This document shows, one piece after another, positions 1,309 through 23,618 of a DNA stretch of 25,565 nt. Each line of letters starts with the position of its first letter. Position 1 is the stretch's first letter. Source of the stretch: a virus; IMG/VR virus record IMGVR_UViG_3300031957_000182, positions 1-25,565 of that record, one strand, 5' to 3'. Under the pieces are notes generated by a model. The model ran no database searches. It saw nothing but the letters and a program-made list of their open reading frames with translations, and was not told where the DNA came from. The position numbers and the translations under genes were made by a program.

Positions 1309-1348
1309 TGTAATATTATACCCTATTTATATCAAATATACCAGACAA
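1309..1348 (-). promoter_or_regulatory. AT-rich gap with TATAAT at 1315-1320 and TATAAATA at 1324-1331
   Basis: This 40-base gap holds two -10-like sequences on the coding strand. TATAAT lies six bases upstream of the ATG at 1308, so a transcript starting at the normal distance would begin at the ATG itself. There is no TTG-type -35 at 17 bases. The preceding AGGG is 12 bases from the start codon, too far for a normal Shine-Dalgarno. The same AGG(G/A)TATAATATTAC(A/T)ATG block occurs at 7749-7767. Confidence 0.35.
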
Positions 1349-1615: not shown

Positions 1616-3474
1616 TATCTTTCACCGTCAGGCTGAACAGCTAATCTTACAGAACCCCAACGCCACTGACCTGCAGCATCTGCAGATACACGAACAACAG
1701 ACTGTCTACCTCTAGCACGCATGTTCACCTTTTGCGTATTAGCATCAATAATAAACGGACCCTTCTCTTGGAAGTCATCCGATGGATACCTACGTGTCTT
1801 AATAGAAAACTTAATCTGTTCTCCTGCACTAAAGGTATAGTCAGGAATAAGTTTATCTGCAAACATTAACTGCTTACCCTCATCAAGGTCAAACTCTGCA
1901 GATTCAACAAATGACGTAAGTGCCTGACCATCACCTGTATAAATATTATCAGGCTCGTTATCCCATACTAGCATATCGCCCGTTGCAGATGTACGTCCAG
2001 TTAAAATAGTAGTATCATATACATTACGGTCTGCAAACGTAGTTGTAATCCCATTTTCAAACAGCTTACCATAGACCCACGTTTGTTCTTCATAATTATA
2101 AATTACATAAGAATTAGGCTCTACACTATCGTTGCTTGGATATAGCCAAATAATTTCTTTAAACTCACTATTAATTCCCGCATATACTTTATCTTTTTGA
2201 GTCATGTTAAAACTATCAAAAAGATGTCGGCGTATTGTGCAGGGCATAGTATTAACACGGCCATCATACATATAGAAATTATTATCGCCCATCCAATAAG
2301 ATACGCCATCAATATCAACAGCTGCGTGCGGTGCAATCATACCACAATTAGAACCCACTTGCGTAAACCTAAATATAAAAGGAGTTCCTACGAACTCTTG
2401 GATATACATGGCCTTATCAGTCCAAATATTAATTGTATTACGAGAACGCACTGCGCCAATAATTCTCGACCCTTCAGTCAAATTAACAAAGCCTGCAGTA
2501 TTTGTTGCGCTAGGTATCCAAATCCTAAAGTTATTTTGGTCAGACCAAGAGACACGCATTGGAATAATTGTAGGGTCTGTTGCAGTAGTAGAAGCACCAT
2601 AGCAAACAACATGACCGTCATTAGGTGACACAATAAAGCTATTTGCGTATGGTGCAGTTCCTACAATACTTGCACGAGCAACAGTATAATTATTTTCAGA
2701 AACATCTAAATATGCAATTTGACTTTTACGGCGTAAGGCTAGTAAGTCTTCTCCATAAGAATCAAACGTCCATTGAGTGCCTTGAAAAACAATATCAGAA
2801 GAGGAGGCGGGAACATTCCAGGCTCGTTCTCCTGTGGTGCTTACGCCTGCATTATATACACCTGCACCATAACCTAATCCTTGGATAGCATCAGAACTTT
2901 CATTTGGTATTAAAAGATTTATTCTTCCATTAGTTCCACCCACTCCTGTAGAATTAGATGTAGCACTTTGGTTTGCATTAATAAAAAAAGCATCCTGTGC
3001 GCTAACGGACGTAATTGCAAAGGTTCCGTTAACACTTGTTCCCGAAAAAGTATCTACACTGGTAAATTCAATTCTATCTCCAACGCTAACATTTTGACTT
3101 GGTGTATAGCCTAAATTTATTTTTATTCTTGGTGTACCAGCAGAAGTATCAAAGTTATTAGATACACTAGTTGTTGTAGCAACAGGCGTAGAGTCAGTTC
3201 TAGATTCGTTTTGTACTACATATAGCTGCGTATTAGTACCATAAGCTACATACTTACGTGTGTTATTATCTGTCCAAGTAAGAATGTCACGAGGAATACC
3301 AGATATAGTATCAGTAGAAAACTTTTCATATCCACGTAAATTTTCTGGTTTACCTTCACGGAAACGAACACGGTTTCCATCAAACCATTTACCCTCTTCG
3401 GCATACTTGGTTGACTCCCTGTGAAAACCAGGGACAAAAGTTAAACTTAAAAATTGTGTATCTGTAGAAGCCAT
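1615..3474 (-). CDS. Tail nozzle / P22 gp10-like packaged-DNA stabilisation protein
   Basis: A 619-residue, strongly beta-rich protein. The N-terminus (LSLTFVPGFHRESTKYAEEGKWFDGNRVRFREGKPENLRGYEKF) is the typical opening of phage nozzle/gp10-type proteins: a short arm, then a W-x-D-G-x-x-V-R-F-R-x-G-x-P motif at about 29-42. Repeated blade-like motifs follow (DILTWTDNNTRKYVAYGTNTQLYVV; IVFQGTQWTFDSYGEDLLALRR; NTINIWTDKAMYIQEFVGTPFIFRF; GVSYWMGDNNFYMYDGRVNTMP), consistent with a beta-propeller. P22 gp10 is about 470 residues; the excess here is a Ser/Thr/Asn-rich insertion at about 95-190. Nozzle proteins form a hexameric tube below the adaptor that closes the tail channel. No strong Shine-Dalgarno precedes the ATG, which lies two bases after the previous stop, so coupling is likely. 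Confidence 0.85.
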   Translation of the reverse strand: MASTDTQFLSLTFVPGFHRESTKYAEEGKWFDGNRVRFREGKPENLRGYEKFSTDTISGIPRDILTWTDNNTRKYVAYGTNTQLYVVQNESRTDSTPVATTTSVSNNFDTSAGTPRIKINLGYTPSQNVSVGDRIEFTSVDTFSGTSVNGTFAITSVSAQDAFFINANQSATSNSTGVGGTNGRINLLIPNESSDAIQGLGYGAGVYNAGVSTTGERAWNVPASSSDIVFQGTQWTFDSYGEDLLALRRKSQIAYLDVSENNYTVARASIVGTAPYANSFIVSPNDGHVVCYGASTTATDPTIIPMRVSWSDQNNFRIWIPSATNTAGFVNLTEGSRIIGAVRSRNTINIWTDKAMYIQEFVGTPFIFRFTQVGSNCGMIAPHAAVDIDGVSYWMGDNNFYMYDGRVNTMPCTIRRHLFDSFNMTQKDKVYAGINSEFKEIIWLYPSNDSVEPNSYVIYNYEEQTWVYGKLFENGITTTFADRNVYDTTILTGRTSATGDMLVWDNEPDNIYTGDGQALTSFVESAEFDLDEGKQLMFADKLIPDYTFSAGEQIKFSIKTRRYPSDDFQEKGPFIIDANTQKVNMRARGRQSVVRVSADAAGQWRWGSVRLAVQPDGER

Positions 3475-4870: not shown

Positions 4871-4899
4871 ATTATACAATAAAACCCTTTGTCAGGCAA
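4871..4899 (-). promoter_or_regulatory. Candidate sigma70-type promoter before the holin-like gene
   Basis: TATAAT (4871-4876) is preceded by exactly 17 bases and then TTGCCT (4894-4899), which matches four of six -35 consensus positions. Transcription would start near 4864, leaving a leader of about 20 bases with a strong ribosome site. The -35 lies inside the loop of a hairpin with arms CTTTGT/ACAAAG (4887-4911). Confidence 0.55.
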
Positions 4900-7757: not shown

Positions 7758-7786
7758 ATTATATCCTAAAAGTTAGCCTAATGCAA
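7758..7786 (-). promoter_or_regulatory. Candidate promoter giving a leaderless start for the 109-aa gene
   Basis: TATAAT (7758-7763) is preceded by 17 bases and TTGCAT (7781-7786; TTG matches the consensus). The -35 lies in the last codons of the mini-fibre gene. The ATG at 7751 is only six bases from the -10, so transcription would start at about the start codon. Confidence 0.4.
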
Positions 7787-8456: not shown

Positions 8457-10909
8457 TTGAGCCTACCTCCTAATCTTCTTTTTCTTTGAGTAAAAGAATT
8501 TTTAATATTTAAAATACCACTAGCATTAACTGTACTAAGATTGCCCATGCTAAACATAGGATTATCAGGCGCTCTGTCTAAAAATACATTAAAGTTTTTT
8601 ACATAATAACCTTCAGTTGCATTGTTGCTTGTTGACCAAATTCCTACCTTGTAATATCTACTATAACTTTCTGGCTCAATAGTAATTTGTTTTTCTTCGT
8701 AAGCACTATCAAAAGCGGATGAATATTGTGCATTAACTCTTTTTCCCCGTAAGGGTCGATTTGTTGTAGCACTAAACTCTAAGGCATTTTCTTCGTGCGC
8801 AGACCTAGTATCGTGTGCCAATAAATAAGGTCTAGTCCCGCTAAATCCACTTACACCTTTTACTTGACAAGTAATTCTGGCTGTTGCCCCAGCTGGAATA
8901 TAGATAGTTTCACCAAACATAGGATAAGAACTGCTATCATGTCTTCGAGTAACATACCAAGCATTTTCAGAAGTATCCCAAACAACTTCTTGATTAAACA
9001 AATACAGTCTCATAGCATCATATTCAAAGTTATGTTCAATGCTCATCATTGACCTACTAGTACCACCATGAAATGCTTGTCCCATTCTAGATTCGCCTGC
9101 CTGTGATGTTCCAGTTTTTTTATCAGGCGAGGGGTGTCCACTTAAATTTGAAAAGAAAGAATCCATCATACCTGCATTCAGTTGTGCAGGACCATCAACA
9201 GTTAGACCATATCTCATGCCAGTAAACTTACATCTCCAAACACTTCCTGGATGTGGCATATACCAACCAAGGCCTCCATAATGGTTTGCATCGGAAATAA
9301 TGTTATGCAGTGCTCCACCAATACCTTCTTCGTATGCAAATATTCTATTTCTATTATTACATCTACTAGCATAACAATAGCTAAAGTCAAACATTTCTGT
9401 TGACCCTTCCATTCTAAAAGCAAAACTTGTTTGACCTGCAGAAATACAACCCATTATAGATGCGAATGGCTCATAGTGCGTGGCTATACCATCATCACCA
9501 TATAATGATATACAACCTCTTGCTACCGCAGACCTGCAGTCATATAGCCAAAGACTACCCCAGTCTCTTTCGTGACCAGGATAATGCTGAATAGTAAGAC
9601 CCTCAACCCATGTACCTCTACTTTGTTGCGGGAATGTTTGTGTATATGTAACAGGATTACTACCATCGCCAATTTTATTCTGCCCTCTTAAAACAACACC
9701 TGTTCTAACATTGTTGTCCGTATCACCAATTAGATGAAACTCTACGTCCTTCAAAACAATGTAGCGATTATAACTACTATTATGAATAACATAAAGATGA
9801 TAATAGTCACTACCGTCTGTAGCAACAGTAGTAAATCTTAAGCCTCTTGAAAGTAAACTAACCAGGCTACCCTCTACAACTTTATAATTTAGAGCAGACG
9901 TAAGTGTCAATGTGTTACCACTAATGCTTTGAATAACATAATCATAACCAGAATTTTGGTCAGTATAATCTGTAGTTCCGTCTGCTTCTGAACGTTTTTC
10001 AATCCATATTCTATCACCTACAGACAATCCACCAACACCATTTAGTGTAATTGTAGTTGCACCACTTGCGGCTTCTGTAGAAACTTTTGCTGCCATCTTT
10101 CTAACCTTAGAATTATTGACATGCGGTTTCAAAGACATCGCTCTGTATACAGTTTCTCCAACAACACTACCAGTAACAGCTGAATTTAAAATCATTCGGT
10201 TGCGGCTATAGTCTATTGAATTGATTGTTCTAATATTTCTATTACTACCAGTCCCAAAAATAATTTGTTGTCCTTTTCTAAACACCTTTGCATTAGAAAC
10301 TATTAGCAATGTTCCATTGGCTTTTGTTACAGTCGAATCTTCTGGCCCAACAAAGTCACGAGTATAAACTGTATTACCATCTATATCGTGAATCCAAAAG
10401 CCTTCGTCTTGAAAACGAATGCCATCATTTTCATCTGTTGATGTGTAATCATATGCATATATCTGAATCCAGTCACCTATAGCAAACGCACTGGCACTTG
10501 CTAGACTGTGTGTACAAACATTACCATCTGTTGCTGCAGTAGTTGTCGTTGTTCCTGCTGGGTCATCCCCCTCAAGAATTAAGTTTGAATTAGCAGAAGA
10601 CTGCACTTGCAATCCATGGTTATCTCCATCTGCTCCATTGAACTGAACTTCAAGATTATCTTTGAAATGAATCGTTCCAGCATTTGCATTTAGATTACCA
10701 TTTATACGAAGTGTTGTATTATTATCGTTTGTAAGGATGCCACCGCTTCCAACAGTAATATCTCCAAAGCCATTAGTAGGAGTTGATAAACCAGTATCAA
10801 TAGTTACAGTATGGTTAATAGTTAAGGTGTCACCATCCGCAGGAGTGTTACCACCCCACGTTGAGCTTGCGCTAAAGTTACCATTCTGTGATGAACTATA
10901 ACTCGCCAT
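8453..10909 (-). CDS. Tailspike with N-terminal G8-like domain and parallel beta-helix
   Basis: An 818-residue protein. Residues about 8-100 (FSASSTWGGNTPADGDTLTINHTVTIDTG..., then ITVGSGGILTNDNNTTLRINGNLNANAGTIHF) follow the G8-type pattern: W-x-G-x-x-P-x-x-G-D-x-x-x-I, V-x-I-D, then a ladder of short strands with G-G-x-L. A Ser/Thr-rich middle leads into turns of a likely right-handed beta-helix (about 380-600; TWVEGLTIQHYPGHERDWGSLWLYDCRSAVARGCISLYGDD, HPGSVWRCKFTGMRYGLTVDG). A C-terminal beta domain ends in a basic tail (TQRKRRLGGRLK). Such spikes often bind or cut surface polysaccharide; acidic residues are abundant but I cannot place an active site. AGGA lies 11 bases upstream of the ATG. 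A perfect sigma70 promoter lies 77 bases upstream. Confidence 0.8.
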   Translation of the reverse strand: MASYSSSQNGNFSASSTWGGNTPADGDTLTINHTVTIDTGLSTPTNGFGDITVGSGGILTNDNNTTLRINGNLNANAGTIHFKDNLEVQFNGADGDNHGLQVQSSANSNLILEGDDPAGTTTTTAATDGNVCTHSLASASAFAIGDWIQIYAYDYTSTDENDGIRFQDEGFWIHDIDGNTVYTRDFVGPEDSTVTKANGTLLIVSNAKVFRKGQQIIFGTGSNRNIRTINSIDYSRNRMILNSAVTGSVVGETVYRAMSLKPHVNNSKVRKMAAKVSTEAASGATTITLNGVGGLSVGDRIWIEKRSEADGTTDYTDQNSGYDYVIQSISGNTLTLTSALNYKVVEGSLVSLLSRGLRFTTVATDGSDYYHLYVIHNSSYNRYIVLKDVEFHLIGDTDNNVRTGVVLRGQNKIGDGSNPVTYTQTFPQQSRGTWVEGLTIQHYPGHERDWGSLWLYDCRSAVARGCISLYGDDGIATHYEPFASIMGCISAGQTSFAFRMEGSTEMFDFSYCYASRCNNRNRIFAYEEGIGGALHNIISDANHYGGLGWYMPHPGSVWRCKFTGMRYGLTVDGPAQLNAGMMDSFFSNLSGHPSPDKKTGTSQAGESRMGQAFHGGTSRSMMSIEHNFEYDAMRLYLFNQEVVWDTSENAWYVTRRHDSSSYPMFGETIYIPAGATARITCQVKGVSGFSGTRPYLLAHDTRSAHEENALEFSATTNRPLRGKRVNAQYSSAFDSAYEEKQITIEPESYSRYYKVGIWSTSNNATEGYYVKNFNVFLDRAPDNPMFSMGNLSTVNASGILNIKNSFTQRKRRLGGRLK

Positions 10910-11075
10910 TGTTTTTCATTTCCTCTATGTCAGCATTTATTTTTATAATCTTATCATTACCATCGTTAGTAACGCTGATGCTACTATTATACTCGCTAAA
11001 CTGCTCTATGTCAATAGTATTATCTTCTTTTAATCTTAACCTAATGTTAAGTGTTCTATACTTAGGAGTCGCCAT
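10896..11075 (-). CDS. Small protein between giant fibre and tailspike (59 aa)
   Basis: A 59-residue protein, MATPKYRTLNIRLRLKEDNT..., ending IEEMKNNGEL. The ATG at 11075 is chosen because GAGGTGG stands just upstream; a TTG four codons earlier is possible but has no better ribosome site. The gene starts within the end of the giant fibre gene (14-base overlap) and ends inside the start of the tailspike gene (14-base overlap). The sequence looks like one beta-strand pair followed by a charged helix, and the function is unknown. It may be an adaptor or chaperone for the flanking fibres. Its codons 25-34 also carry the -35 and -10 of the promoter at 10986-11014. Confidence 0.65.
   Translation of the reverse strand: MATPKYRTLNIRLRLKEDNTIDIEQFSEYNSSISVTNDGNDKIIKINADIEEMKNNGEL
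10986..11014 (-). promoter_or_regulatory. Perfect-consensus sigma70 promoter upstream of the tailspike
   Basis: TTGACA (11009-11014) and TATAAT (10986-10991) on the minus strand are separated by exactly 17 bases, matching the bacterial sigma70 consensus at all twelve positions. The start would be near 10979, giving a leader of about 70 bases before the tailspike ATG at 10909. It is embedded in the 59-aa gene, so transcription of the tailspike and everything downstream could be boosted independently of the giant fibre. Confidence 0.75.
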
Positions 11076-14000
11076 ATTCCACCTCAAATCTTTCGATGTC
11101 TTTTCTTTCTCCAGTAATAAAATAAAAATATTCAGAGTTATTATATACAGTAACTTTGTTGTCTTTTATTTCTTCAACATATAACTTATCATAAATACCT
11201 ACAGGGGTTAGCTGAACTGTAATAGTATCTTCGTGAACCAAGCCTTCCCAATAATCAGGAAGCTCAATTACAGATGAACTAGACTTACCTCTAATATATA
11301 CAGCATGTTCTGGTCCTTCAAGAACGCCATGATGTAAGCGCATTCCGTCTTTTGTCGGGTGTTCAATATCAAATGATTTTGTTACACCTGATATATTACC
11401 ACCAGATACAATATCACCTGAAGCACTAACTATACCCGTAATAGAAATACCGCCAGCAGTAGTGGCGAGTTTAGCAGAGTTGTCGTAATAGAGTGTGACT
11501 GCGCCATTCGCACTAGCGACAAGCATATCTTCGTCACCGTCACTCCGCAGATTAACGCTTGCTCCTCCCTTAATATACAGACTTCCTGTGCCTGTGTCCT
11601 CAATAAAGGAGTGTGACCCATTGTGATAAATCTGCAAGTCAGAGCCAGCACCGAAGATGGCTTTGTTGTTGTCTCCGAATGACAGATTGCCTGTAATTGT
11701 GTCGCCAGCCTTAGAAACTTTATTACCAATAGACGTAGCCATTGTTGCTGACAGTGTAGCAATGGCAGTGTTACTATTGTTAATAGACGTTGCCATTGTG
11801 CTTGAAACACTAGCGGCTAAAACTGATACCGCATTAATACGAGTGTTAACAGATGTGATAGCTGCTGTTCTATTGTTAATAGACGTAGCCATTGTTGCTG
11901 ACAACGTTGCAATAGCAGAGTTACTATTGTTAATAGACGTAGCCATCGTACTTGAAACACTTGCAGCTAAAACCGACACCGCATTAATACGGGTGTTAAC
12001 AGATGTAATAGCGGCTGTTCTATTGTTAATAGACGTAGCCATTGTTGCTGACAATGTTGCAATAGCAGTGTTACTATTGTTAATAGACGTAGCCATCGTC
12101 GCTGACAAAGCTGCACGAGCAGTGTTACTATTGTTAATAGACGTTGCCATTGTGCTTGAAACACTTGCAGCTAAAACAGACACCGCATTAATACGAGTGT
12201 TAACAGATGTAATGGCCGCTGTTCTATTGTTAATAGACGTAGCCATTGTAGAGCTTACAGCTGCAATAGCAGTATTACTATTGCTAATAGACGTTGCCAT
12301 TGTAGAGCTTACAGCTGCAATCTTAGTTTGAAGTGTAGCTGATGTCCCTACACTTGCTCCGGTAGTAATGCCTGTAAGGTTGCTACCGTCACCATAAAAA
12401 GCAGAAGCGGTTACGTTACCAGTTACGTTAATGTCTGAATGAGCAAACAATTTGCCTATATGCATTTCGGATGTTGGGTCGTTGGCTGTATCAAATAATG
12501 TTGTACCTGATGTAATAGTATCAGCTGTTAAGTATCCAGAAGTTGTAATACTGGGGCAATTACGCCACACTGTTTCAACTGCAATATAAGCAAAGTCAGC
12601 CGCAACAACCCACACAAACATGTTACCCGACCCATCATCAATAAGCTTAATAGAAACACGGTCTGCTACGCTGTCTTGGTCATCGTGTTCATACCACCAA
12701 TGACCCCGTGCTGTTCCACTGTTTTGTGCGAAACTAAAATGAACAGTTGCACTGTCAGTAGTTGTACCAAAGTCATAAGCAAAGTAAAGCTTACCTTCTA
12801 CAGCTCCGTGAGTATCGGCATTATTTTCAATCTTACCAAGAAGCCAAGCACCTCCACCAGAGCCAGAGTTCATATCATATTGTCTATAATTAGCAACATC
12901 AGAATCAATATCAACTGCCGATACTTTTGCTCTATTTGCGCTAACAGTTCCTACGACAGCAACACCACCAGAGTTAGTTTCAAATTTTTGAACACCATTA
13001 AAATATAAATCTACAGCACCATTTTGATTTGCAACAATACTTTCTTCACTATTTACGGCTCTAATTCTAATTTTGCTGCCACCGCCATATAAATATAACT
13101 CGCCAGTTGCATTTTGAATAGCACTATTAGTTCCATCATGGTAAATCTGCAAGTCAGAGCCATCACCTAAAATAGCTATGTTGTTATCACCAAAAGACAG
13201 ATTGCCTGTCATCGTGTCGCCTGATTTGGAAACCTTATTGCCAATAGACGTTGCCATTGTTGCTGACAGTGTAGCAATGGCAGTGTTACTATTGTTAATA
13301 GACGTAGCCATTGTGCTTGAAAGACTTGGGGTAAGAGCTGATACTGTAGCAATACGGCTATTAACAGATGTAATAGAATCTTTATTTGTTTTAGTTAAAA
13401 CTGATACTGTAGCAATATGAAGGTTGCTATTATTAATACTCGTAGCCAGCGTACTTGAAACACTATTAATACGAGTGTTAACAGATGTAATAGCATCTAG
13501 ATTTGTTTTAGTTAAAGCTGACACCACAGCAATAGCAGAAACATTATTAACTGCAATAGTATTTACAGAGGTAATAGCCGCCAGGTTAATTGCAATGGTA
13601 GAGGCATTAGCTGCAATAGAGGTATTAGCCAAAGCAATTGCTAGAGCATTAGCAGCAATAGCAGAGGCGTTAACATCTGCAACCACAGAGTTTAAGGCGC
13701 TTACAACATTATTAATAGATGTAACTGAATCTAAATTTGTTTTAGTAAGAACTGACACCGCATTAATACGAGTGTTAACAGATGTAATGGCCGCTGTTCT
13801 ATTATTAATAGATGTAGCCATTGTTGCTGACAGTGTAGCAATAGCAGTGTTGCTATTATCAATAGACGTTGCCATTGTGCTTGAAACATTTGCAGCTAAA
13901 ACTGATACCGCATTAATACGAGTGTTAACAGATGTAATAGCTGCTGTTCTATTGTTAATAGACGTTGCCATTGTTGCTGACAGTGTAGCAATGGCAGTAT

Positions 14001-16026
14001 TACTATTACCAATAGACGTTGCCATTGTGCTTGAAACATTTGCAGCTAAAACTGATACCGCATTAATACGAGTGTTAACAGATGTGATAGCTGCTGTTCT
14101 ATTGTTAATAGACGTTGCCATTGTTGCTGACAGTGTAGCAATGGCAGTATTACTATTACCAATAGATGTAGCCATTGTTGCTGACAATGTTCCAATAGCA
14201 GTGTTGCTATTATCAATAGACGTTGCCATTGTTGCTGACAACGTATTAATTTTAGTTTGAAGTGTAGCCGATGTTCCAGCACTTGCATAAGCTATAGCAT
14301 TAATAGAAGTAATAGCATCTAGATTTGTTTTAGTAAGAACTGATACACCAGCAATTCTAGTTTCTAGTGTACCAGAAGTTCCTACACTTGCATAAGCTAT
14401 GCTATTAATAGAAGTAATAGCGTCTTTGTTTGTTTTAGTTAAAACTGATACTGCATTAATTCTAGTTTCTAGTGTACCAGAAGTTCCTACACTTGCATAA
14501 GCTATAGCATTAATAGAAGCAATAGCATCTAGATTTGTTTTAGTTAAAGCTGAAACATCTGCAATGTTTACAGTATTAACAGATGTTAAAGCTGACACTG
14601 CGGCTATACGAGTTTCTAGGGTAGCTGATGTTCCAGCACTTGCATATGCACTGCCATCTCCTAAGATAGCATTAATAGAGGTTACGGCATCTTTATTTGT
14701 TTTAGTAAGAACTGATACACCGGCAATTCTAGTTTCTAGTGTACCAGAAGTTCCTACACTTGCATAAGCTATAGCATTAATAGAGGTAATAGCATCTAGA
14801 TTTGTTTTAGTTAAAGCTGAAACATCTGCAATGTTTACAGCATTAACAGATGTTAAAGCTGACACTGCCGCAATAACAGACGCATTATTTACAGCTAGTG
14901 TATTTACAGATGTAATGGCTGCCAGGTTAATTGCAATGGTAGAAGCATTAGCGGCAATTGAAGTATTAGCCAAAGCAATTGCTAGAGCATTAGCGGCAAT
15001 AGCAGAAGCATTAACATCATTAACAACTGAATTAATTGCGCTAACTACATTGTTAATAGATGTAATAGCATTAGTGTTTGTTGTTATCTTTGTTTGTAAA
15101 GCTGTGGATACACTTGCAATGCTTGTTGCTAAAGTGTTAGATACTGTAGCAATCCGTGTCTCTAGTGTAGCAGACGTAGCAGCAAAGGTACTAGATACCC
15201 CTGCAATACGAGCTTCAAGTGTAGCTGAAGTTGTTGCAAATGTGCTAGACACTCCTGCAATACGGGCTTCAAGTGTAGCCGATAATGCAACAACTGCAGA
15301 AGCATTAGCCGCAATAGAGGTATTGGCTACGGCAATAGCAGAAGCATTGGCAGCAATAGCAGAAGCATTTACATCTGCAACTACAGAATTAATTGCGCTT
15401 ACAACATTATTAATTGAAGTAATAGCTGAATTAGTACTTGACAAAGCTGCCGAAACCGTGTTAATATGACTTTCCAAAGTCGCAGAGGTTGAAGCAAAGG
15501 TAGAGCTTACACCTGCAATACGAGTCTCCAGTGCTGCCGATACATTAGCAATACTAGTAGCCATAGTCGAACTAACTGTTGCTAAGCCTGCCGATGTAGC
15601 TACTGGTTCACCTGCCAATGTAATATTAGTAGCAGCAACAGTAGTTGCGCTTACTGTACCTGCACTAACAGTTGAAGCATGTAAATTACCAGTGCGTAAA
15701 CTACTAACACTTACATCTTGGAATGTAAGAGTTTCTGCAGTTAATGTATTTGTTGTGATGTTTGTTGCGCTAAGTGTTGATACATTTATACTATTAGTAG
15801 TTAATGAGTTTGGTTGAAAAGTACCCTGAACAGTTAAGTTACCATTAATACTTACATTACCAACAAATGCAGCTTCTGTTTGAGAAAGCTTTAAAGCTGT
15901 ACTATTACCGCCACCATCTTGAACACGGCGTAGTGTTTCGTCTATACCACTATTAGATGCACTAGAATTAATCTGCAATAAATCCTTATAGGTATTTGCA
16001 ATTTTTTTACCTGTTAAGTCTGACAT
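11062..16026 (-). CDS. Giant repetitive tail fibre (1654 aa)
   Basis: The largest gene in the window. Residues 1-70 (TGKKIANTYKDLLQINSSASNSGIDETLRRVQDGGG... LTVQGTF) are a virion-anchoring segment typical of marine-phage fibres. Residues about 70-150 are short beta repeats. About 150-930 are helical-type repeats of 18, 35 and 50 residues. About 932-1045 is a GDTMTGNLSFGDNN...SDLQIYHDG domain. About 1045-1200 is a beta-sandwich-like insertion (GSGGGAWLLGKIENN, GHWWYEHDDQD). About 1203-1430 is GDGSNLTGIT plus more repeats. About 1430-1545 is a second SDLQIYH domain. About 1550-1654 is a C-terminal domain (FDIEHPTKDGMRLHHGVLEGPEHAVYIRGK, LPDYWEGLV) seen at fibre ends. The ATG follows the previous stop directly (TAGATG). 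Such fibres are usually trimeric and host-binding. Confidence 0.88.
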   Translation of the reverse strand: MSDLTGKKIANTYKDLLQINSSASNSGIDETLRRVQDGGGNSTALKLSQTEAAFVGNVSINGNLTVQGTFQPNSLTTNSINVSTLSATNITTNTLTAETLTFQDVSVSSLRTGNLHASTVSAGTVSATTVAATNITLAGEPVATSAGLATVSSTMATSIANVSAALETRIAGVSSTFASTSATLESHINTVSAALSSTNSAITSINNVVSAINSVVADVNASAIAANASAIAVANTSIAANASAVVALSATLEARIAGVSSTFATTSATLEARIAGVSSTFAATSATLETRIATVSNTLATSIASVSTALQTKITTNTNAITSINNVVSAINSVVNDVNASAIAANALAIALANTSIAANASTIAINLAAITSVNTLAVNNASVIAAVSALTSVNAVNIADVSALTKTNLDAITSINAIAYASVGTSGTLETRIAGVSVLTKTNKDAVTSINAILGDGSAYASAGTSATLETRIAAVSALTSVNTVNIADVSALTKTNLDAIASINAIAYASVGTSGTLETRINAVSVLTKTNKDAITSINSIAYASVGTSGTLETRIAGVSVLTKTNLDAITSINAIAYASAGTSATLQTKINTLSATMATSIDNSNTAIGTLSATMATSIGNSNTAIATLSATMATSINNRTAAITSVNTRINAVSVLAANVSSTMATSIGNSNTAIATLSATMATSINNRTAAITSVNTRINAVSVLAANVSSTMATSIDNSNTAIATLSATMATSINNRTAAITSVNTRINAVSVLTKTNLDSVTSINNVVSALNSVVADVNASAIAANALAIALANTSIAANASTIAINLAAITSVNTIAVNNVSAIAVVSALTKTNLDAITSVNTRINSVSSTLATSINNSNLHIATVSVLTKTNKDSITSVNSRIATVSALTPSLSSTMATSINNSNTAIATLSATMATSIGNKVSKSGDTMTGNLSFGDNNIAILGDGSDLQIYHDGTNSAIQNATGELYLYGGGSKIRIRAVNSEESIVANQNGAVDLYFNGVQKFETNSGGVAVVGTVSANRAKVSAVDIDSDVANYRQYDMNSGSGGGAWLLGKIENNADTHGAVEGKLYFAYDFGTTTDSATVHFSFAQNSGTARGHWWYEHDDQDSVADRVSIKLIDDGSGNMFVWVVAADFAYIAVETVWRNCPSITTSGYLTADTITSGTTLFDTANDPTSEMHIGKLFAHSDINVTGNVTASAFYGDGSNLTGITTGASVGTSATLQTKIAAVSSTMATSISNSNTAIAAVSSTMATSINNRTAAITSVNTRINAVSVLAASVSSTMATSINNSNTARAALSATMATSINNSNTAIATLSATMATSINNRTAAITSVNTRINAVSVLAASVSSTMATSINNSNSAIATLSATMATSINNRTAAITSVNTRINAVSVLAASVSSTMATSINNSNTAIATLSATMATSIGNKVSKAGDTITGNLSFGDNNKAIFGAGSDLQIYHNGSHSFIEDTGTGSLYIKGGASVNLRSDGDEDMLVASANGAVTLYYDNSAKLATTAGGISITGIVSASGDIVSGGNISGVTKSFDIEHPTKDGMRLHHGVLEGPEHAVYIRGKSSSSVIELPDYWEGLVHEDTITVQLTPVGIYDKLYVEEIKDNKVTVYNNSEYFYFITGERKDIERFEVEYGDS
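11700..12345 (-). repeat. Second repeat block of the giant fibre (150-bp and 54-bp units)
   Basis: Copies of the GCTGCTGTTCTATTG marker (plus strand) lie at 11861, 12011 and 12215, spaced 150 and 204 bases. The 204-base step equals one 150-base unit plus one extra 54-base unit (18 residues). All units are multiples of three, so copy-number changes keep the frame. Confidence 0.85.
13750..14245 (-). repeat. 150-bp tandem repeats of the giant fibre
   Basis: The marker CTGCTGTTCT occurs at 13791 (variant), 13941 and 14091, exactly 150 bases apart. The 50-residue unit reads NNRTAAITSVNTRINAVSV, then LAANVSSTMATSI, then NSNTAIATLSATMATSI. Confidence 0.88.
14271..14830 (-). repeat. 105-bp repeats of the giant fibre
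   Basis: The marker CATAAGCTAT lies at 14286, 14391 and 14496 (105-base spacing) and again at 14763. The 35-residue unit reads AITSINAIAYASVGTSGTLE then TRIAGVSVLTKTNKD. Thirty-five residues equal five heptads, fitting a coiled-coil shaft. Confidence 0.85.
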
Positions 16027-20331: not shown

Positions 20332-20360
20332 ATTATACTAAAAAAGGGGGTGAGATACAA
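20332..20360 (-). promoter_or_regulatory. Candidate promoter fused to the capsid terminator
   Basis: TATAAT (20332-20337) is preceded by 17 bases and TTGTAT (20355-20360). The -35 falls in the hairpin loop of the terminator and the -10 is one base after its T-run (TTTTTTAG then TATAAT). The start would be near 20325, about 25 bases upstream of the 96-aa ORF's ATG, with AGGAG between. Confidence 0.5.
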
Positions 20361-20373
20361 GTCCCACCCCCTT
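20340..20373 (-). terminator. Strong intrinsic terminator after the major capsid gene
   Basis: On the minus strand AAGGGGGTGGGA (20362-20373) pairs with TCTCACCCCCTT (20344-20355) over 12 positions with one G-T wobble, with a six-base loop (CTTGTA). Six T residues (20340-20345) follow, the first two belonging to the stem. It lies 27 bases after the capsid stop codon. High-level capsid transcription would be cut here, and lower levels of the tail genes would follow from the adjacent promoter. Confidence 0.9.
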
Positions 20374-23589: not shown

Positions 23590-23618
23590 ATTATATAGTA
23601 TGATTGTTTAATTCACAA
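23590..23618 (-). promoter_or_regulatory. Candidate promoter upstream of the scaffold/capsid genes
   Basis: TATAAT (23590-23595) with TTGTGA (23613-23618; four of six matches) exactly 17 bases away. The -35 overlaps the hairpin at 23610-23633. The start would be near 23583, with a leader of about 50 bases that contains the small inverted repeat CGTCT/AGACG. It would raise expression of scaffold, decoration and capsid genes relative to the portal. Confidence 0.5.

Follow-up and report, generated by a model that had tools for sequence, protein, structure and literature searches.

Internal promoters are known within operon genes, such as trpP2 in trpD of E. coli and pI in xis of phage lambda. 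Local promoters also occur in the late region of T7, for example phi17 before the tail-fibre gene. In LUZ100, the capsid gene has been described as controlled by a promoter and a terminator (PMC10134795). Here, we analyzed a window of 25.6 kb (25,565 nt), IMG/VR record IMGVR_UViG_3300031957_000182. It resembles the trpP2 and pI systems in that a candidate sigma70-type promoter lies within coding sequence and would provide a downstream gene with its own transcript; unlike these, the site in the window is a prediction, has perfect consensus hexamers and is located in a region of virion genes. As in T7 and LUZ100, several putative promoters divide the structural region and the capsid gene is followed by a terminator-like element, but T7 and LUZ100 use phage-specific promoters, whereas those of the window look like host sigma70 promoters.

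The capsid and portal proteins encoded in the window resemble those of HTVC023P/HTVC027P, CRP-901/902, DSL-LC04 and 023Pt_psg01, and uncultured relatives are far closer, with capsid protein identities of 67-89%. No RNA polymerase gene is present in CRP-901/902, and these phages are believed to depend on their host (PMC10149686). A literature search retrieved no promoter mapping for these phages.

A consensus sigma70 site within the 59-aa gene

On the minus strand, positions 11014..10986 read TTGACA TAGAGCAGTTTAGCGAG TATAAT, a match to the sigma70 consensus at 12/12 positions with a 17-nt spacer, within the 16-18 nt that separate TTGACA and TATAAT in sigma70-type promoters (Table 1). This confirms an earlier note on this DNA, which had reported a perfect TTGACA-17-TATAAT inside the 59-aa gene; no other 12/12 match with this spacing is present in the window. 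The -10 hexamer is preceded by a G and followed by an A, as in the late promoters of relatives. From the predicted start near 10979, about 7 nt past the -10, to the ATG at 10909 the leader would measure ~70 nt, in agreement with the distance to the tailspike given in the same note. This leader has no unusual structure, and searches for RNA families and tRNAs gave no hit.

Table 1. Coordinates of the genes, the in-gene site and the further promoter-like elements of the window, with counterparts in related loci
Feature	Position	Strand	Remarks
59-aa gene	10896..11075	-	ORF containing the promoter site; 56-aa homolog in L004
Putative spike, 818 aa	8453..10909	-	First large gene behind the promoter site; ATG 10909
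Long fibre gene, 1654 aa	11062..16026	-	Upstream of the promoter site
-35 hexamer TTGACA	11009..11014	-	Codons ATT GAC ATA, I-D-I
-10 hexamer TATAAT	10986..10991	-	Codons TAT AAT, Y-N; 17 nt from -35
Predicted transcription start	10979 (about)	-	Inferred from spacing
Putative promoter TTGTGA-17-TATAAT	23590..23618	-	Intergenic, before 348-aa gene; counterparts L088, L089, L091, L098
Putative promoter TTGTAT-17-TATAAT	20332..20360	-	After major capsid gene; -35 within terminator hairpin loop
Terminator-like hairpin GGGGGTG...CACCCCC + T6	20340..20371	-	Directly after capsid gene; read from sequence
Putative promoter TTGCAT-17-TATAAT	7758..7786	-	Before 109-aa gene; -35 in 3' end of upstream gene; kept in L088, L098
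Putative promoter TTGCCT-17-TATAAT	4871..4899	-	Intergenic, before 53-aa gene; class match
Putative promoter TGGTAT-17-TATAAT	1315..1343	-	-10 six nt before ATG of 204-aa gene
Terminator-promoter counterparts	L088:9670, L089:5146, L091:5557, L092:1567, L093:8250, L098:10998		

The start of the 59-aa ORF overlaps the end of the fibre gene and its stop overlaps the start of the spike gene. Because the 56-aa homolog in locus L004 is conserved as a protein, with synonymous third-position changes, we consider the ORF a real gene. The promoter would sit inside it since the fibre-spike junction has no intergenic gap. The 818-aa product is presumably a spike; it has a 46% identical homolog at the same place in L004 and no Pfam or PHROG match, and beyond L004 one genome contig carries a 28% identical match. 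The C-terminus of the fibre is common to many marine phages. Within the fibre gene, many near-identical repeats at 11748-14888 give rise to recurring hairpin-like and promoter-like antisense matches.

Consensus hexamers may also arise by chance, if a 59-aa peptide written in common codons of an AT-rich gene happens to spell them and nothing initiates there. Dinucleotide shuffling yielded 0.013 expected exact TTGACA-17-TATAAT sites per window on both strands, and codon permutation 0.009 on the coding strand; an exact site is uncommon in any single window, and one among many windows is no surprise. Synonymous redraws of the 59-aa peptide reproduced 12/12 in 14.6% of cases and at least 11/12 in 55%. 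With common codons, the peptide thus makes a perfect match fairly likely, and the hexamer match alone is weak evidence; a judgment of the site by this match was rejected on the grounds of these ~15% of redraws, which speak for a chance origin. Exact 12/12 hexamers within genes of other phages point the same way. For example, two phages have TTGACA-18-TATAAT within homologous small genes (L014:7642-7671 and L022:9605-9634), and these matches are likely driven by the encoded peptide.

The late-promoter class of the relatives

As a comparison set we used 80 loci with related capsid genes, comprising 787 kb of late regions. In these, 67/163 coding-strand intergenic TATAATs are preceded by TTG at exactly 17 nt, with 6 cases at a spacer of 16 and 1 at a spacer of 18. 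The antisense frequency is 9/329 in genes and 1/72 in gaps, and elsewhere the rate is ~3%. Judging by their sequence and placement, we take the dozens of intergenic TTGnnn-17-TATAAT (TTG-N20-TATAAT) sites in the late regions of the relatives to be promoters. The consensus of the class has a TTGCAT/TTGTGA-like -35, a 17-nt spacer that is G-rich just before the -10, and TATAATA. Most sites have TTGCAT, TTGTGA or TTGTAT as their -35, and ACA follows the TTG in 3/67. Among the intergenic TATAATs of four cultured relatives (HTVC027P, DSL-LC04, 023Pt_psg01 and CRP-902), 0/21 belong to the class, which therefore characterizes the closer, uncultured relatives.

Inside genes, coding-strand TTG-17-TATAAT occurs at the background rate in the 80 loci (8/260, several of them ORF-calling artefacts), in line with a chance origin of such matches. 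Promoters overlapping an upstream gene are found in relatives, e.g. in the last codons of a gene at L149:198-226. The group has few in-gene promoters: apart from the ORF-calling artefacts, only this case is comparable. In the window itself, the class comprises 4/6 intergenic and 1/8 in-gene coding-strand TATAATs, the latter being the site at 10986-11014, and 0/14 antisense TATAATs. This site shares with the late promoters of the group the TTG, the exact 17-nt spacer, the TATAAT with G before and A after it, and the position upstream of a late gene. It differs in its location and its -35: the others are found in gaps or where genes end, usually with TTGCAT, TTGTGA or TTGTAT, whereas this one has TTGACA and is placed midway along the 59-aa gene, before the start of a gene that overlaps it.

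A profile of the class was built from 54 non-redundant sites of relatives, with the window left out. Six positions stand out on the coding strand of the window, namely 7763 (22.3 bits), 1320 (20.6), 23595 (17.9), 10991 (17.6), 20337 (16.9) and 4876 (15.7), with the in-gene site ranking fourth. The next coding-strand scores are 11.8 and 3.5 bits, and the best antisense score in the window is 1.0. No antisense position reached 16 bits in the 787 kb of relatives' loci or in the window, which argues against chance. The flanks fit the profile as well: scored by themselves, they rank within the top 1.2% of both coding-strand and AT-matched positions, and 39/54 real sites score at least as high. Other genuine in-gene or antisense-in-gene matches have flank scores from -5 to -22.

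The synonymous codons around the in-gene site are biased towards the class profile (p about 0.002-0.016), which is a further point against a chance origin. The observed full profile score was reached in 0.13% of synonymous redraws. With TTG and TATAAT held fixed, the flank score was reached in 0.2-0.3% of redraws, and in 1.6% with a within-gene synonymous permutation. Calibration of the codon test gave 0.8% at 0.01 and 5.7% at 0.05; half-profiles gave 0.003 and 0.007 for the in-gene site, and the same test on seven other in-gene TATAATs gave p values of 0.13-0.81. Most of the signal is contributed by the codons adjoining the -10, GAG before and AGT AGC after it. Following the profile and synonymous-codon tests, the view that all in-gene matches are noise was dropped for this site.

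The fibre-small gene-spike cassette in a second phage

Fibre, small gene and spike occur in the same order in only one other record, at locus L004 of IMGVR_UViG_3300050343_000135 (called G001). A second close relative with this cassette was not found in IMG/VR or phage records, and apart from the L004 homolog the 59-aa peptide is encoded in no further record. G001 has no homolog of the capsid or portal of the window and so is a different phage that shares the cassette; its late region hardly uses the TTG-N20-TATAAT class. The earlier note had proposed to align relatives and see whether both hexamers are kept at synonymous positions. The one relative available for this comparison, from another phage lineage with different head genes, has lost both hexamers, and its residues are changed as well (I-D-I to I-T-V; E-Y-N lost). 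The loss fits a chance origin of the site, but we did not accept it as a refutation, as the residues were altered too and capsid and portal homologs are missing.

All 13 exact TTGACA-17-TATAAT sites of G001 fall within 48.9-67.6 kb (48991-67603) in its early half and evidently are early promoters. They are mostly intergenic, and in many of them the upstream flank is A-rich, the spacer contains a GGTT-like motif and ATAT follows downstream; the structural half of G001 has no exact TTGACA-TATAAT site with 17-nt spacing. As these promoters share hexamers and spacing with the in-gene site and G001 shares the cassette, the site could be a remnant or member of this family that was brought in with an exchanged cassette. 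The in-gene site is without the A-rich upstream and ATAT downstream flanks, scoring -26.2 on those of the family, a background value reached by 39% of background positions, and the cassette copy of G001 itself is without the site. Assignment to this family was rejected on the basis of the flanks, and we regard such an origin as highly improbable.

The 56-aa gene of G001 contains a different site, TAGACA-16-TATAAT (11/12), 34 nt before the G001 spike. Since at least 11/12 was obtained in ~21% of synonymous redraws of this gene, it was not adopted as independent support, being weak. A rather doubtful extension would be that the cassette moves between unrelated lineages with a promoter of its own, carried along or evolved anew in the small leading gene, which would be both a coding gene and a promoter carrier, so that the spike would be expressed independently in any recipient operon.

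Two perfect or near-perfect sites lie before putative tail genes elsewhere. In L002, a phage that shares the fibre C-terminus, a perfect TTGACA-17-TATAAT (3430-3458) is located 22 nt before a tail-fibre-like gene, an intergenic parallel. In L170 (HTVC027P), a phage with a published transcriptome, TTGACA-17-TAAAAT (11/12) lies at 40389-40417 in the short intergenic stretch that precedes gp69, which is a putative tail protein.

Predicted transcription of the late region

From its sequence context, the in-gene site is probably a functional sigma70-type internal promoter, a common type of signal whose position is unusual. Host RNA polymerase of the sigma70 type would presumably initiate inside the 59-aa gene near 10979, and the transcript would cover the spike gene and the 227-aa gene that follows, besides read-through from upstream. 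The sequence match, the fit to the class profile and the codon bias towards it are observed; initiation by the host sigma factor, the exact start, the timing and the strength are inferred. The distance of 76 nt between -10 and ATG, longer than usual in the class, and the uncommon ACA in the -35 are points against it. Chance sites with a score of 17.6 bits are at least as rare as in-gene promoters in the group, and roughly one in ten chance sites would be expected to fall directly before a gene start; the position just ahead of a large gene hence counts against coincidence, which we consider unlikely, although it is the most serious alternative.

The in-gene promoter would be one of about six TTG-N20-TATAAT promoters dividing the late region of the window. 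The proposal of the earlier note that the spike has an independent, host-dependent transcript is supported as far as the internal host-type promoter is concerned, by the profile of the relatives and the codon test, while the picture of a lone promoter in an otherwise continuous operon is not, as there are at least five more putative ones of the same class. If the promoter is real, it would show how a putative receptor-binding gene can be transcribed separately where intergenic space is missing, in compact phages that belong to an abundant, uncultured marine group. The comparison also yields a predicted map of late-region TTG-N20-TATAAT promoters for this group; its cultured relatives CRP-901/902 lack an RNA polymerase of their own.

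Past the major capsid gene (20332-20371, minus strand), terminator and promoter form a composite, with the -35 (TTGTAT/TTGCAT) in the loop, the T tract in the spacer and the TATAAT at 17 nt. This arrangement is kept in roughly 15 relatives despite changed stem sequences. In two other places, 7758-7751 and 1315-1308, the -10 is only 5-6 nt ahead of an ATG (TATAAT-N5-6-ATG), and at the 109-aa gene this spacing is conserved (L088:16113-16124 and L098:16882-16893). Such a short distance suggests that some late genes are transcribed without a leader.
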